In this document: positions 143 through 63,915 of the stretch, one piece after another
How the letters are laid out: the number at the start of each line of letters is the position of its first letter
Position numbering within the stretch: the stretch's first letter is position 1
Assembly: GCF_002157855.1 (NCBI RefSeq)
Contig: NZ_CP020880.1
Location: forward strand, 1,860,001-1,924,000
Reading direction: 5' to 3'
From: Sutcliffiella horikoshii
GTDB lineage: Bacteria; Bacillota; Bacilli; Bacillales; Bacillaceae_I
DNA: 64,000 nucleotides
The notes under the pieces: model-generated
The model's input: the letters and a program-made list of their open reading frames with translations, nothing else
Database searches by the model: none
What the model was told of the DNA's origin: nothing
Translations under genes and position numbers: made by a program

Positions 143-2537
<2,395 letters not shown>

Positions 2538-2541
<4 letters not shown>

Positions 2542-3182
2542 ACGAGCTTATGAACAGAACAGTGGCAGAAGATTTATTGGAAATTAAAGCGGTATTTTTC
2601 CAACCCAATGACCCTTTTACATGGTCTTCAGGAATTAAATCACCTATTTATTGTGACAACCGTTTGACCATTTCTTATCCACGAGTTAGAAAAAACATTT
2701 CTGAATCTTTGTCACGATTGATTGTTTCAAAGTTTCCTAATGTGCAGGTGGTAGCAGGCACAGCGACAGCAGGCATTCCACATGCTGCATTAGTGAGCAA
2801 TGAACTGAACCTGCCGATGTGCTATGTTCGAAGCAAGGCGAAAGCACATGGAAAAGGAAATCAAATTGAAGGAAGAGTAGAAGCCGGGCAGAAGGTAGTT
2901 GTCGTGGAAGATTTGATTTCCACAGGCGGGAGTGCCATCGCGGCAGTTGACGCACTAAGAGAAGCCGGATGCGAAGTGCTTGGTGTGGTCGCCATTTTTA
3001 CATACGGTCTGGAAGTAGCCGATGATAATTTATCCAATTACGAGATTGAAGCCCATGCATTGTGTGATTATCAGACTTTGATGGATGTTGCGATTGAAAA
3101 GGAATACATTGGAGAAGGTGACCGCAAGAAGCTTTCGAAGTGGGTGGAGAACCCGACAAGCGAGACTTGGATGGAGTTTTAA
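2538..3182 (+). CDS. pyrE: Orotate phosphoribosyltransferase
   Basis: PyrE joins orotate to PRPP to make OMP. The 214-residue protein shows the type I PRTase PRPP loop [13 protein letters not shown] and the orotate-side [13 protein letters not shown] motif near residue 35. The start ATG at 2538 overlaps the pyrF stop (ATGA) and follows a purine-rich GGGAGTGGAG. It is the last gene of the pyr operon: a hairpin terminator follows within 20 bases. Regulation by PyrR would act at leaders upstream of this window; no such leader is present in what is shown. Confidence 0.97.
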
Positions 3183-3199
3183 GGATTGTTTTTGAGGTT

Positions 3200-3235
3200 C
3201 CCTCAGACGGATGTGGTCTGGGGGATTTTTTGTGT
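3200..3235 (+). terminator. Rho-independent terminator of the pyr operon
   Basis: CCCTCAGAC (3200-3208) pairs with GTCTGGGGG with one G-T wobble and is followed by a T-rich tract, 18 bases after the pyrE stop. Confidence 0.85.
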
Positions 3236-3253
3236 TGGGGTTAGATTAATGGA

Positions 3254-3681
3254 ATAGAAGATTACCTACTTTTTAGAATTAGGTAGATGAAGTTGCAAAA
3301 ATGTAGAATATGAGAGTTTAGAGGTAGTAGGGAGGTTGGGAAATGTACAAGCGGATCCGGGAAATGTAGAAGGTCGCACCAAAAGTGATAGAAGGTTGCG
3401 ATTTAAATGTAGAAGGTGGAATTGAAGGGAGGAAGGTTGCTGTTGAAAACATGGGACTCCCCTGATGTCCCAAGCGTGAGGTCCCATTCCTTTGCGAGAA
3501 GCTTGTCGGAGTCACAAAAAATTAGAAGGTTACCTACTTTTGAAATTAGGTAGCTGAAAAGCAAAAGTGTAGAATATGAGAGTTTAAGTGTCGAAGGACG
3601 ACTGGGAAATGTACAAGCGGATCCGGGAAATGTAGAAGGTCACACCAATAGTGGTAGAAGGTTGGGATTTAACTGTAGAAC
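3254..3681. repeat. Duplicated ~165-bp intergenic repeat made of degenerate 21-22-bp units
   Basis: Two diverged copies, about 3254-3418 and 3522-3681, share long blocks: TAGAAGNTTACCTACTTTT, TGTAGAATATGAGAGTTTA, GGGAAATGTACAAGCGGATC and GGATTTAANTGTAGAA-type stretches. Inside a copy the core TAGAAGG or TACAAGC recurs near 3346, 3367, 3389 and 3410, a spacing of 21-22 bases. No convincing gene lies in 3183-3818: the only open frames are low-complexity and lie in the repeat on the minus strand. The ~100 bases before the next gene (3700-3818) hold nothing recognisable. Confidence 0.7.
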
Positions 3682-3818
3682 CTCCACGAAGAACCCCAAC
3701 CAGTCCAGTAAACCCAATAATTAGAATTGAAAAATCCAAAAAATCTCTAAATAAAGCAGGGAACCCACCAATAAATGTCGAAATATGTAACTAAACAAAA
3801 AAAGAAAGGTGTGAAGTA

Positions 3819-49040: not shown

Positions 49041-49061
49041 TGGGGAAATGGAGTGGAAAAT

Positions 49062-49832
49062 GTGGCAAAGCTGTCGATAAAAGAGATAGAACAAATATTA
49101 GCCAAAACGGAAAATGAGCAAGACTCTTTCCTCCTTTCAATAAAAAGTGATGAACGTAAAGGTGTACAGGTACTTTTAAGTAGATGGGAAAAGCGGAAAG
49201 AGGAAAAACAGAAGCTTATAAATCAGTTCAGAGAAATGCAAAAATATGAACGTGCTCTTTGGGAGAAAGGGTCCCGGTACATTGCTGGAATAGATGAAGT
49301 CGGTCGAGGGCCTCTGGCAGGACCGGTCGTTGCAGCTGCTGTGATCTTGCCTGAAAATTTTCAGTTGCCCGGACTGACAGACTCAAAAAAACTCAGCCAG
49401 CAAAAACGCGAGATTTTTTATGATTATATTAAAAAGAATGCTCTTAGTTACGGAATAGGAATTATCATGCCAAGCGATATAGATAAGGTGAATATCTATG
49501 AAGCAACCAAGCTTGCCATGATGGAGGCAGTGAAAAACCTGTCCCTCCTACCTGATCATCTCCTGATTGATGCCATGAAACTAGAAGTAGATATAGCACA
49601 AACATCCATCATAAAGGGAGATGCGACAAGTATATCCATCGCAGCGGCATCTGTGTTGGCTAAAGAGACAAGGGATGCTTATATGAAGAACCTTGCATCT
49701 GAATTTCCACAGTATGGATTTGATAAAAACATGGGATATGGAACCCGAGAGCATTTAATCGCTTTAGAAGAAGTTGGGGTGACCCGAGAACATCGTCGAT
49801 CATTCTCACCAGTAAAGGAATTGGTTGACTAA
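49062..49832 (+). CDS. rnhB: Ribonuclease HII
   Basis: 256 residues. Removes ribonucleotides from DNA-RNA hybrids. An N-terminal substrate-binding helical extension (~1-70), typical of Bacillus RNase HII, precedes the catalytic core with IAGIDEVGRGPLAGPVVAAA, LTDSKKLS and LLIDAMKL supplying the acidic residues. GTG at 49062 with GGAGTGG just upstream is preferred to GTG at 49053 because it gives the family start MAKLSIKEIE. Followed after 12 bases by ylqG. Confidence 0.93.
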   Translation: MAKLSIKEIEQILAKTENEQDSFLLSIKSDERKGVQVLLSRWEKRKEEKQKLINQFREMQKYERALWEKGSRYIAGIDEVGRGPLAGPVVAAAVILPENFQLPGLTDSKKLSQQKREIFYDYIKKNALSYGIGIIMPSDIDKVNIYEATKLAMMEAVKNLSLLPDHLLIDAMKLEVDIAQTSIIKGDATSISIAAASVLAKETRDAYMKNLASEFPQYGFDKNMGYGTREHLIALEEVGVTREHRRSFSPVKELVD

Positions 49833-49844
49833 AAGGAGTTAGCT

Positions 49845-50891
49845 ATGAACATTTCACCGTTAGGCTCTGGAGTCGGAAAAGCCCAAAACCAAGCGACGGC
49901 TTTTCCTGCCACTTCACAAACCGCACAGGTAAGCACTCAGGTACTTATAACCCAAATAGGGGGGAAGATGCCTTCAACCTCTTTAAAAGAAGTAACAGAG
50001 GCTATAGACAGCCTTCCCCCATCACAAAAAGAGAAAGCAATGGAACTGGTTAAAGTATTAGTGCAGCGAAATGGACTTACCAACCTACCTGAGAAGCTTC
50101 AAATGATGGTCACCAGTTTTTCCGATAAGGAAACGATACTACAAAATCTAGCCAAAGTGGAAACTTATCTTGAAAAAGCAAATCTTCCAACACCAGTTCA
50201 GGAAAAATTAATAGATGTCATTCGAAACATGCAACTTCCACAGACTCTTAACAACAAAACAGAAACCTTGCATTTTATTAAACAAGTACTACCTTTACTT
50301 GGATTGAATTTCGAACAAAACTTAAACAATTATATTCGACAAGACCAGCCTTTGTCAGAAGCTAAGTTAGAACAGTTGAAGCCATTACTCTTGAATTATA
50401 TGAACCAGGCAACAACTCCTGAAGAAAAAGCTGCCATTGGCCAGCTCATTTCCAAATTGACGAGTTTTCAACTTCTAACAAGAGAAGAAGGAAACCTGCA
50501 TCATGTTTTTTTACCTATTCCTGTTAACATGGAAAATGAATCAAAAGAATGGTATGTGCATATAAGCTCCAAACAAAAGAACGAGGAGCTGGATTCGGAA
50601 TATTGCCGTGTTGTTCTATTGCTAGATCTGCCTATATTTTCTTCCGTAATGGTGGACGTACTCGTTCAAAAGAAAGTAATCGGTATTTCCTTTCAACATT
50701 CTTATCCTGCGCTAGAATCACTTGTGGAAAAAAGCGCACCACTGCTTAAGGAGAACCTCGCTAAAATAGGCTATACATTAAGCAATGTGAAAACAGAATG
50801 CAAGGAAACGGACCATACTCCTGGGATACCATTAGGTTATCTAAGGACGATTTTGGCGCCACCAAAGGAAGGGGTGGACATCCGAATATGA
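49845..50891 (+). CDS. ylqG: YlqG-like protein with FliK C-terminal-like domain
   Basis: 348 residues. The N-terminal part is Gln/Ser/Thr-rich and low in conservation, followed by helical repeats (~45-215). The last ~110 residues (VVLLLDLPIFSSVMVDVLVQKKVIGISF, then LVEKSAPLLKENLAKIGYTLSNV) resemble the C-terminal domain of the flagellar hook-length regulator FliK. The stop overlaps the ylqH start. Pairing with an FlhB-C-terminal-like protein strengthens the idea of an export-specificity module, but its function is unproved. It matches the position of ylqG in B. subtilis. Confidence 0.7.
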   Translation: MNISPLGSGVGKAQNQATAFPATSQTAQVSTQVLITQIGGKMPSTSLKEVTEAIDSLPPSQKEKAMELVKVLVQRNGLTNLPEKLQMMVTSFSDKETILQNLAKVETYLEKANLPTPVQEKLIDVIRNMQLPQTLNNKTETLHFIKQVLPLLGLNFEQNLNNYIRQDQPLSEAKLEQLKPLLLNYMNQATTPEEKAAIGQLISKLTSFQLLTREEGNLHHVFLPIPVNMENESKEWYVHISSKQKNEELDSEYCRVVLLLDLPIFSSVMVDVLVQKKVIGISFQHSYPALESLVEKSAPLLKENLAKIGYTLSNVKTECKETDHTPGIPLGYLRTILAPPKEGVDIRI

Positions 50892-51184
50892 GTAAAAACA
50901 TCATAAAGCGAAAAAAAGCAGTCGCCATAAAATATGAACAACAAAAAAGTATTGCTCCAGTGGTGCAGGCAAAGGGCACTGGACTCATAGCTGAAAACAT
51001 TCTGGAGGAAGCCAAAAAGCATAATATCCCCGTTCAGGAAGACCAGGCTTTATTGGAAATACTAATGGAATTAGAATTAAATGAAACAATACCGGAAGAA
51101 TTATATGAGGTGGTAGCAGAAGTCTTGGCCTATGTGTACAAGCTTCATAAAGAAGAGAATAAGAATGTGAAAAACACCACGTGA
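50888..51184 (+). CDS. ylqH: FlhB cytoplasmic C-terminal-like protein (YlqH)
   Basis: 98 residues that align with the part of FlhB downstream of its NPTH autocleavage site: KAVAIKYEQQKSIAPVVQAKGTG, AKKHNIPVQEDQALLEIL and ETIPEELYEVVAEVLAYVYKL. No NPTH motif or membrane helices remain. In FlhB this region switches type III export from hook to filament substrates on contact with FliK. ATG at 50888 overlaps the ylqG stop, so the two are coupled. It may be a stand-alone regulator or a relic. Confidence 0.85.
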   Translation: MSKNIIKRKKAVAIKYEQQKSIAPVVQAKGTGLIAENILEEAKKHNIPVQEDQALLEILMELELNETIPEELYEVVAEVLAYVYKLHKEENKNVKNTT

Positions 51185-51410: not shown

Positions 51411-52571
51411 ATGAATATCCATGAATATCAAGGAAAAGAGATCCTCAGAAAATACGGGGTGGCTGTTCCAAATGGCCGTGTAGCGTTCACTGTTGAAGAA
51501 GCAGTAGAAGCTGCAAAAGAACTAGGAACAGAAATTTGTGTTGTGAAAGCGCAAATTCACGCTGGTGGCCGCGGTAAAGCGGGCGGAGTGAAAGTTGCCA
51601 AGAATTTGGATGAAGTTCGTGAATATGCGGGTGAAATCCTAGGCAAAACGTTAATTACTCATCAAACGGGCCCAGAAGGTAAGGAAGTAAAACGCCTACT
51701 TATCGAAGAAGGATGCGACATCAAGAAAGAATACTATATCGGACTTGTATTAGACCGTGCAACTTCCCGAGTTGTCCTAATGGCATCTGAAGAAGGCGGA
51801 ACAGAAATTGAAGAAGTGGCAGAGCAAACGCCAGAAAAAATCTTCAAAGAAGTGGTTGATCCTGTTGTAGGATTAATAGGTTTCCAAGCTCGTCGTATTG
51901 CATTCAACATCAACATACCAAAAGAGTTGGTTGGACAAGCGGTTAAATTCATGATGAGCCTATATACAGCTTTCGTGGAGAAAGACTGCTCCATCGCAGA
52001 AATCAATCCACTTGTTGTTACGGGTGACGCAAAGGTTATGGCATTGGATGCAAAACTTAACTTCGACTCCAATGCACTATACCGTCACAAGGACATTTTA
52101 GAATACCGTGATCTGGAAGAAGAAGATGCAAAAGAAATCGAAGCTTCCAAATACGATCTAAGCTACATTTCACTTGATGGAAACATCGGATGTATGGTTA
52201 ATGGTGCCGGCCTTGCTATGGCAACTATGGATATTATCAAACATTATGGTGGGGACCCTGCTAACTTCCTGGACGTTGGGGGCGGAGCAACTGCTGAGAA
52301 AGTAACAGAAGCTTTCAAAATTATCCTTTCTGATGATAATGTAAAAGGAATTTTCGTTAACATTTTCGGTGGAATTATGAAGTGTGACATCATCGCTACA
52401 GGTGTTGTGGAAGCAGCGAAACAAGTAGGACTTGAAGTACCTCTAGTAGTACGTTTGGAAGGTACGAACGTAGACCTAGGAAAGCAAATCTTACGTGAGT
52501 CTGGCTTAAACATCGTGGCAGCAGAATCCATGGCTGATGGTGCACAAAAAATCGTAGCGCAAGTAGGATAA
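51411..52571 (+). CDS. sucC: Succinyl-CoA synthetase beta subunit (ADP-forming)
   Basis: 386 residues. Succinyl-CoA to succinate plus ATP, a TCA cycle step. ATP-grasp domain begins [17 protein letters not shown], with [16 protein letters not shown] binding nucleotide; the CoA-ligase domain contains [18 protein letters not shown] and [19 protein letters not shown] precedes ATG. sucD follows after 18 bases. Confidence 0.97.
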
Positions 52572-62558: not shown

Positions 62559-62761
62559 GGCGTATAAGTTATTAGTAATTTTTCTATCCTAAAATAGCAA
62601 TAGGTCTTTATGCCTATGGAGGAAAATGAGTCAAATTGACGATTTTTTTTAACAATTGACACATAGACATATCGGTTACCTTAATTTACAATAAAAACAT
62701 ACATACATATTTCGACAAAAATATATAATTCGTAACAAAAGATATATTTATGGGGGTACTA

Positions 62762-63151
62762 ATGAAGATTTTTTCGACATCAATCCAAGCATTGGAAAAA
62801 GGTATACAGTATTCGGGTGCAAAACATAAAGCTATTTCACATAATATCGCAAACGTTGATACACCCAACTTTAAACGAAAAGAAATAAAACCGAACTTTG
62901 GTGAAACTTACCAAAGAGCACTTGAAGCAAATAAAACAGATGACAGACATAGAGAATTTTCCGGAAGTTCAAATAAAGCGTTTAAAATGGATAACACATC
63001 TTATTCCTACTCACATAATGGCAATAATGTCGACATAGATAAAGAAATGTCAGATTTGGCTGAAAATCAAATATATTATTACACATTAATTGATCAAATG
63101 AGCGGGAAGTTCCAATCCCTTCAAAACGTAATTAAAGGAGGGAGAGGATAA
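62762..63151 (+). CDS. flgB: Flagellar basal body rod protein FlgB
   Basis: 129-residue proximal rod protein. The diagnostic N-terminal segment ISHNIANVDTPNFKRKEI is at ~25-42, and the C-terminal helix ends in QNVIKGGRG. ATG at 62762 has GGGGGT five bases upstream; an in-frame ATG 12 bases earlier contains that site. It opens the fla/che operon after codY, as in B. subtilis; its stop overlaps the flgC start. Confidence 0.94.
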   Translation: MKIFSTSIQALEKGIQYSGAKHKAISHNIANVDTPNFKRKEIKPNFGETYQRALEANKTDDRHREFSGSSNKAFKMDNTSYSYSHNGNNVDIDKEMSDLAENQIYYYTLIDQMSGKFQSLQNVIKGGRG

Positions 63152-63603
63152 TGTCCATGTTTAAAAGTATGAACATCTCGAGCTCCGCTCTTACCGCACA
63201 GAGGCTCAGAATGGATGTTATATCATCAAATATGGCAAACGTCGACTCAACCCGCGGGGAATACCGTAACGGGCAGTGGGAACCGTACAGAAGGAAGCTG
63301 GTAGAAACCGCACCGAAGGAAAACAGTTTCCAATCCTATTTACAAAAAGCCTCTGGAAATGGAAGTGGTTTTGGAAGTGGAGTGAAGGTAACTAGAATTA
63401 AAGAAGATGATGCTCCTTTCCGTGTAATGTTCGACCCAGAGCACCCGGACGCAAATGAAGACGGATATGTTGAACTGCCCAATGTCGATCCTTTAAAAGA
63501 AATGGTCGACCTTATGAGTGCATCAAGGTCCTATGAGGCGAATGTGACGGTATTTAATGCTTCAAAAGGTATTATGATGAAAACGTTGGAGCTTGGTAAA
63601 TAA
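63151..63603 (+). CDS. flgC: Flagellar basal body rod protein FlgC
   Basis: 150-residue rod protein. N-terminal MNISSSALTAQRLRMDVISSNMANVDSTRG and C-terminal PLKEMVDLMSASRSYEANVTVFNASKGIMMKTLEL are typical of FlgC; both helices pack in the rod tube. It overlaps flgB by one base and precedes fliE by 15 bases. Confidence 0.96.
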   Translation: MSMFKSMNISSSALTAQRLRMDVISSNMANVDSTRGEYRNGQWEPYRRKLVETAPKENSFQSYLQKASGNGSGFGSGVKVTRIKEDDAPFRVMFDPEHPDANEDGYVELPNVDPLKEMVDLMSASRSYEANVTVFNASKGIMMKTLELGK

Positions 63604-63618
63604 GTGGAGGTCATATAG

Positions 63619-63915
63619 ATGATTACTAAAATAGCTAATTCTAATCAAATGGTTCAGAATCTAAATAGTGTTCAGAAAACGAGTGGGGATGTGCATCAAC
63701 AGTTTTCTACCTATTTAAAAGATGCTTTAAATGAAGTGAACAATGCACAAGTTGCTTCCAATCAAATTACTACAAAGCTAGTTAATAATGAGGGAGTAGA
63801 GCTTCATGACGTGCTGATTGCTCAGCAAAAAGCAAGTGTAGCCATGTCGCTTACGATGGAAGTAAGAAACAAAGGCGTGGAAGCATATCAGGAAATTATG
63901 AGAATGCAAGTGTAG
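63619..63915 (+). CDS. fliE: Flagellar hook-basal body complex protein FliE
   Basis: 98 residues; FliE links the MS ring (FliF) to the rod. The C-terminal half (LHDVLIAQQKASVAMSLTMEVRNKGVEAYQEIMRMQV) is the conserved family core. GGAGG precedes ATG. The last 85 bases of the window show no start; fliF would be expected next. Confidence 0.95.
   Translation: MITKIANSNQMVQNLNSVQKTSGDVHQQFSTYLKDALNEVNNAQVASNQITTKLVNNEGVELHDVLIAQQKASVAMSLTMEVRNKGVEAYQEIMRMQV

Follow-up and report, generated by a model that had tools for sequence, protein, structure and literature searches.

A two-gene unit of a FliK-like protein and a copy of the FlhB tail, outside the flagellar operon and conserved across Bacillota

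Contact between FliK and FlhB tells the growing flagellum that its hook is done and that the filament can be started, and this export-specificity contact has been studied for decades, with the FlhB half, as part of the membrane exporter, being the difficult one. Here we describe a pair of genes that carries both sides of this contact in small, separate form, for which we use the names ylqG and ylqH of the preliminary description of this DNA, presumably those of the Bacillus subtilis homologues named there. The closest described systems are the FlhX/HP1575-type proteins of Campylobacterota, which, like YlqH, are described as short FlhB tails encoded as separate genes. The FlhB-tail homologue HP1575 of Helicobacter pylori reportedly acts as a 'spare part', as the title by Wand et al. 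from 2006 has it, a title without mention of a FliK partner, unlike YlqH with its YlqG. Passages from several further papers concern such genes and their neighbours: 'flhX-fliK' is named outside the main flagellar cluster of Nitratiruptor, an arrangement like that of the pair studied here (PMC9321776); FlhX is counted among export-apparatus proteins in a survey of Actinobacteria (PMC10746217); ylqH is entered in an Aliarcobacter gene list with type III secretion genes (PMC9235176); flhX is Cj0848c of Campylobacter jejuni (PMC4894983); and Cj0849c, the adjacent number, is one of the genes credited with putative type III secretion signals (PMC2764114). Our literature search, to which subscription papers were mostly out of scope, found no study of the YlqG/YlqH pair or of its function. 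Already known, then, are short FlhB-tail genes (FlhX, FlhB-like) and the flhX-fliK neighbourhood in Campylobacterota; new are the conservation across phyla as a two-gene unit, the joint loss of both genes, the predicted fold of YlqG and its shared terminus.

The gene pair and its setting

The window (the whole stretch of 64,000 nucleotides of Sutcliffiella horikoshii DNA that was analysed) contains the pair and its surroundings as follows.

49053..49832, + strand: rnhB, ribonuclease HII, the neighbour upstream, ending 12 bases before ylqG (open reading frame)
49845..50891, + strand: ylqG-like gene for a FliK-like protein of 348 residues (open reading frame; weak PF02120 match; protein missed by the OB profile)
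50556..50804, + strand: region of the predicted FliK/PscP-type (T3S4) core fold, YlqG residues about 238-320 (AlphaFold2, Foldseek, second aligner)
50607-50792, + strand: PF02120 match in YlqG, residues 255-316 (Pfam)
50865..50876, + strand: putative Shine-Dalgarno-like purine stretch before ylqH, within the K-E-G-V codons of the ylqG tail (sequence, comparison of 41 loci and inference)
50871..50888, + strand: C-terminal GVDIRI of YlqG (comparison; D at -4 invariant in 41 Bacillales homologues)
50888..50891, + strand: ATGA overlap of the ylqG stop and the ylqH start (sequence)
50888..51184, + strand: ylqH-like gene; its 98-residue product copies the part of the FlhB cytoplasmic tail that follows NPTH (open reading frame from the ATG at 50888; PF01312, TIGR00789 and PDB matches)
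50918-51136, + strand: PF01312 match, positions 262-335, within ylqH (Pfam)
51411..52571, + strand: sucC, succinyl-CoA ligase beta subunit, downstream neighbour (open reading frame)
62750..63915, + strand: start of the flagellar operon, with FlgB-like, FlgC-like and FliE genes (Flg_bb_rod and FliE matches; FlgC by reading only)

Both reading frames were found where the preliminary description had placed them, 49845..50891 and 50888..51184 sharing the four bases 50888-50891, an overlap that suggests translational coupling at most, which is less than the stoichiometric pair that had been read from it. The pair also lies, as had been said, outside the hook and basal-body operon, which begins 11.6 kb downstream with the FlgB-like gene at 62750 and FliE at 63619, and its setting throughout Bacillales is one of housekeeping genes. 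Elsewhere in the genome there are a separate full flhB gene (G000:C1:1938945) and a clear fliK gene (G000:C1:1930637), the pair thus being additional to the switch proper. Among sigma-D-like sites near the pair the best has two mismatches, and promoter and terminator scans around it gave little above shuffled sequences. A homologous pair stands at the same place in the B. velezensis record, in keeping with the earlier statement that homologues stand there in B. subtilis. The gene at the YlqG position of that record (L125, 2280-3983) is labelled 'glycosyl transferase', apparently a misannotation.

Relationship of the two proteins to FlhB and FliK

YlqH corresponds to the tail of FlhB without its membrane part or the NPTH cleavage site, as had been proposed: it has a start codon of its own, and its match to PF01312 (positions 262-335 of 335, E 5.1e-20) begins past NPTH. 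It also covers positions 1-82 of the 84 of TIGR00789 (flhB_rel, 'FlhB-like'; E 3.8e-29), the name under which the B. velezensis homologue is annotated, with a score (100.7 bits) that is below the curated cut-off of 117.35. Its best PDB matches are solved FlhB tails, and a profile of YlqH compared with FlhB tails of the same order gave an E of 1.9e-26 over 81 columns. For comparison, sets of 31 FlhB and 31 FliK loci were assembled, each consisting of the window genome's own locus and the 30 best-scoring ones; NPTH is present in 31/31 of these FlhB loci, as is the stretch A-D-V-V/I-I-T-N before the cleavage site, and NPTH is absent from the YlqH of the window. No PTH was found within the first 20 residues of any of 40 YlqH homologues from across the phylum (their starts being chosen by script), and a loose search for an NPTH-type motif matched one of 41 Bacillales homologues. 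According to the passage cited, the cleavage site in the FlhB tail domain separates strands beta1 and beta2 (PMC3640470), and because the first strand of that fold precedes NPTH, YlqH is without it; it thus differs from FlhB-CC/FlhB-CCD, whose tail it matches, in the membrane part, NPTH and the preceding strand.

The FliK-type C-terminal domain that had been read into the first product is faint in the window copy and clear from its relatives and the predicted fold. YlqG of the window matches PF02120 (Flg_hook) at 17.9 bits, below the curated cut-off of 29.8, which is passed by two homologues that each adjoin a YlqH (in G028 and G021) and by a third frame from a genome (G029) with no YlqH among the matches listed for it. 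A profile comparison of YlqG with FliK is weak taken alone (E 0.0013, probability 18.5%), and a PDB sequence search with YlqG returned nothing useful. Structure prediction of the C-terminus, the check to which the preliminary description had exposed its claim, gave a FliK-type fold: the AlphaFold2 model of the last 150 residues (pLDDT 82.9, pTM 0.76, from 40 sequences) retrieved from the PDB with Foldseek, at rank 1, the switch (SS) domain of PscP (5cuk, E 2.2e-3, probability 1.00) and, at rank 3, the C-domain of FliK (2rrl, E 0.061, probability 1.00), with no match at E 0.001 or better, and a second aligner put 2rrl on top (Z 5.6, a value shared by unrelated StART-like domains) and gave 5cuk a Z of 4.3. 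These structure scores are not convincing alone and become so jointly with the Pfam matches in relatives. The case for homology of YlqG to FliK stands on those Pfam matches and on the modelled fold, profile comparison alone being too weak for it; it is this fold by which YlqG is grouped with the PscP and FliK switch domains (FliK/T3S4, PF02120) as a protein with a predicted T3S4-type C-terminal fold. One member in each of two scanned sets also matched HpaP.

N-terminally, YlqG probably departs from FliK. The model of a full-length homologue (L063; pLDDT 82.8, and at least 90 in 257 of 431 residues) has a predicted OB-like barrel (29-81), a helical array (91-291) and the switch domain (298-399), with 29-291 mostly folded and low confidence for residues 1-20 and the tail 406-431. 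Its order of core, disordered tail and short terminus is that of FliK; the predicted barrel and helices before the core, and the place outside the flagellar operon, set YlqG apart from it. A barrel profile built from 15 YlqG homologues was found in 36 of the 41 Bacillales homologues and had no match in the window YlqG, L056, L059, L060 or L073, and the window protein is regarded as a shortened copy because this N-terminal barrel is absent. Given the copies that the profile misses, the barrel may be dispensable. A table of evolved B. subtilis clones includes the change P457Q in ylqG (PMC11523185, the table being the part cited).

At its extreme C-terminus, YlqG ends in the pattern hydrophobic-D-x-x-hydrophobic, present in 41/41 Bacillales homologues and 32/39 families phylum-wide against 3 of 372 control frames (stop-to-stop frames of at least 200 codons from both strands, antisense frames included); in Bacillota the end mostly reads hydrophobic-D-hydrophobic-K/R-hydrophobic-COOH. 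Aspartate at -4 alone occurs in 41/41, 33/39 and 25/372, respectively, and D or N at this position in 37/39 of the phylum-wide upstream partners versus 51/372 control frames, which makes it a loose mark by itself. True FliK proteins of Bacillales differ: 18 of 31 carry D or N at -4, more often N (14/31) than D (4/31), and 3/31 end in the strict motif. The G-V of the terminal GVDxKI was also considered as a protein motif, which it probably is not; lying within the Shine-Dalgarno-like stretch, it may instead be kept in Bacillales as part of the ylqH ribosome-binding site. At one locus (L067), which has no overlap of the genes and a separate site for ylqH, the G-V is lost and D-L-R-V is kept, a single case and thus a hint. 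The corresponding end of FliK has a described role: in the passages cited, the last five residues of Salmonella FliK are important for switching (PMC10965912), and removal of the FlhB tail depends on FliK, whose last five residues are proposed to act on the cleaved tail, which is then ejected (PMC13344023, 2026).

Conservation, joint loss and genomic neighbourhoods

Within Bacillales, 40 loci were hand-picked from among the matches listed (41 homologues entering the comparisons), and in these the order rnhB-ylqG-ylqH is found in 40/40, a sucC homologue downstream in 36/40 and the four-base overlap (-4) in 37/40. PF01312 matches occur in 98 of the 101 genomes examined at the level of the order: 91 have two or three, six have the full FlhB only and one (G069) has the short copy only. 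The six FlhB-only genomes (G036, G041, G049, G079, G081 and G088), in which neither gene of the pair is intact, have no YlqG at E ≤ 0.001 apart from a remnant with stops in G088, the weak matches in G036 and G079 (E 0.19 and 0.20) being at chance level. Neither gene stands between rnhB and sucC in G049 and G041, and in G088, which retains FlhB and FlhA, both are decaying together there (L091, 9960-12133). In G041 (L085, 11882-12694), short unrelated reading frames stand where the pair would be. In the three order-level genomes that have no FlhB, neither gene of the pair was found. The pair is thus nearly confined to genomes with FlhB; G069, with an intact pair (L054 and L094, the same place, G069:C28), is a draft assembly with 7% contamination. 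Searches of it found no FlhB, FlhA or flagellin, so that either its flagella were lost recently or the assembly is mixed.

Across Bacillota, 328 of 398 genomes have a PF01312 match, 88 of them one and 240 two or more, as counted by hand from a table in which the second match may not always be YlqH; the 88 with a single match imply that the pair is dispensable. In 324/328, the best match has an E below 1e-80, so the short copy almost always accompanies a full FlhB; the weaker four are G122, G123, G299 and G412, and G122, whose best match is weak (E 3.2e-50), has an FlhB-tail copy and flagellin, with FlhA not found. We then took one YlqH per Bacillota family, from the better-scoring among the matches listed, which gave 40 families, or 39 for counts of upstream genes since one locus (L143) has no readable upstream gene. 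The upstream gene ends between -8 and +100 bases from the ylqH start in 37/39 families; 31/39 of these partners match Flg_hook at E ≤ 0.01 (best E 4e-13), and 38/39 have either that match or D/N at -4. The two without D/N at -4 are L130, a FliK-like protein (19.6 bits), and L154, a chemoreceptor. At the latter locus (2024-3760, in G170), a chemoreceptor with a hemerythrin domain precedes the FlhB-tail gene, with no FliK-like gene directly upstream, and G170 is absent among the genomes listed with FliK-like matches. Independent loss of either gene across many genomes, by which the preliminary description would have seen its claim refuted, was not seen within the order, in any of the nine genomes lacking the FlhB-tail gene; among the phylum-wide loci, L154 is the one FlhB-tail gene without an adjacent FliK-like gene.

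The outer neighbours behave differently. With the longest frame per side taken as the neighbour (possibly antisense at some loci), downstream frames gave 79 Pfam families (E ≤ 1e-5), each in at most two of 40 loci, and the commonest upstream families, RNase HII and YlqF-type GTPase, reached 5/39 each. The pair stays together while its outer neighbours change.

Such pairs extend beyond Bacillota. Pseudomonas aeruginosa encodes a 492-residue FliK-like protein (67.4 bits) and a 111-residue FlhB tail with an ATGA overlap, beside ccmAB, and Cupriavidus campinensis has a FliK-like gene (49.6 bits) and an FlhB tail behind a FliT gene; both FliK-like partners pass the Flg_hook cut-off. The best 80 of 297 relatives of the P. 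aeruginosa tail are preceded by a frame that ends in the same manner, recognised by that ending and not by Pfam except in P. aeruginosa, and nearly all come from Pseudomonas and Stutzerimonas, near relatives that are hardly independent. In an unfiltered reading, D at -4 occurs in 79/80 of the Pseudomonas partners; one extraction, which also gave 79/80, used a pattern that included part of the tail. The Cupriavidus partner has no terminal D.

Some pairs adjoin flagellar genes. In Acetoanaerobium (L172), flagellin follows directly after the pair, and three genomes of one family (L257-L259), chosen for unusually long or strong frames and not at random, have extra pairs beside flagellin, with FliS between in two. 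L257 (2076-12064, in G347) has two tandem YlqG/YlqH-like pairs with a flagellin gene after the second; its first YlqG frame has 2325 residues with repetitive stretches, and the match to the second YlqG is divided between two frames. In L258 (744-5488) and L259 (144-2741), the pairs lie upstream of fliS and flagellin, with YlqG frames of 1459 and 700 residues.

Possible function of the pair

Functionally, we posit, at roughly even odds (a probability of about 0.5), that the pair is a soluble FliK:FlhB-tail module whose two proteins act together on the type III exporter of the flagellum. ylqH would be translationally coupled to the end of ylqG, and YlqG would hold YlqH with its FliK-type core and the conserved residues at its C-terminus. 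Beginning after the cleavage site, YlqH would need a partner strand or surface, for which YlqG is the natural candidate. YlqH could then be a detachable spare FlhB tail, comparable to HP1575, that occupies the place in FlhB vacated when the native tail is removed, with the YlqG:YlqH complex exchanging with the site on FlhB that the switch leaves empty, and the pair would reset, hold or buffer the export state, presumably after hook completion.

How the two proteins might engage is a more tentative matter, and one version that we regard as doubtful is strand exchange, in which the YlqG terminus would stand in for the FlhB strand beta1 that YlqH does not have. In trans, YlqG would complete the fold of YlqH and deliver YlqH to FlhB, whose own beta1 would take over, whereas the FliK tail would act in reverse, extracting the native tail by displacing beta1. 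In that case the pair would amount to a cytosolic form of the export switch that can be loaded again. Such mimicry of beta1 is weaker in Pseudomonas, because the VDETA end of the partner there has a charged residue behind the D, and in Cupriavidus, because the partner has no D at this place.

Since the pair has the same two domains as the switch, while the true fliK and flhB genes stand separately, it might also act by competition from outside the exporter, with YlqH titrating FliK or YlqG capping the FlhB tail so that the switch is delayed or tuned. The idea of the preliminary description, that the pair could tune the real FlhB/FliK switch, is close to this, and the single PF01312 match in 88/328 Bacillota genomes would suit it as well. 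One gene would suffice for a decoy, however, and yet 31/39 partners match Flg_hook, or 38/39 with the terminal D/N included; the D at -4 of YlqG (41/41), where 14 of 31 FliK proteins have N and 4 have D, further hints that the two have separate partners, and we consider a decoy or antagonist unlikely. The variable length of YlqG (348-731 residues across 41 Bacillales, with a coefficient of variation of 0.18 versus 0.11 for FliK frames) would instead suit a second exported ruler, a secreted FliK paralogue timing another stage such as filament start or the cap, with YlqH as its switch target. The 1459- and 2325-residue YlqG frames beside flagellin in one family point the same way, as does, in the passages cited, the putative type III secretion signal of Cj0849c, numbered next to the flhX gene Cj0848c (PMC4894983, PMC2764114). 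The L063 model, though, is largely folded, with its predicted OB-like barrel and helical array, unlike a ruler that could be threaded, and YlqG from two copies within one genus differs in length (348 vs 431 residues), which leaves this reading rather improbable.

A role apart from flagella, for instance at the ribosome or in RNA metabolism, would fit the position of the pair beside ylqF, rnhB and sucCD (rnhB preceding it at every fetched Bacillales locus), the OB-like N-domain predicted in YlqG relatives and the persistence of the pair in G069, where FlhB, FlhA and flagellin were not found. This housekeeping context varies across the phylum, however, the three relatives without FlhB are without the pair, and some lineages have it beside flagellin, FliS or FliT, so that we judge a non-flagellar role decidedly improbable. 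Evolutionarily, the two genes could be leftover fragments of duplicated fliK and flhB that drift without function, as their joint decay in G088 and the divergence between two copies of one genus (YlqG 44% identical, SucC 96%) would allow; invariant residues and the adjacency and terminus conserved across 40 families and a second phylum speak so strongly against drift that a mere relic is very improbable indeed.

Up to 240 of the 328 Bacillota genomes with FlhB-type genes, and Pseudomonas as well, have a natural soluble pair of the switch domains. Such a pair can be purified, crystallised and deleted, which would offer a testable version of the export switch, and its conserved terminal residues are a target for point mutations that would test the idea directly. 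Strand exchange, if true, would moreover explain how FliK removes the FlhB tail.
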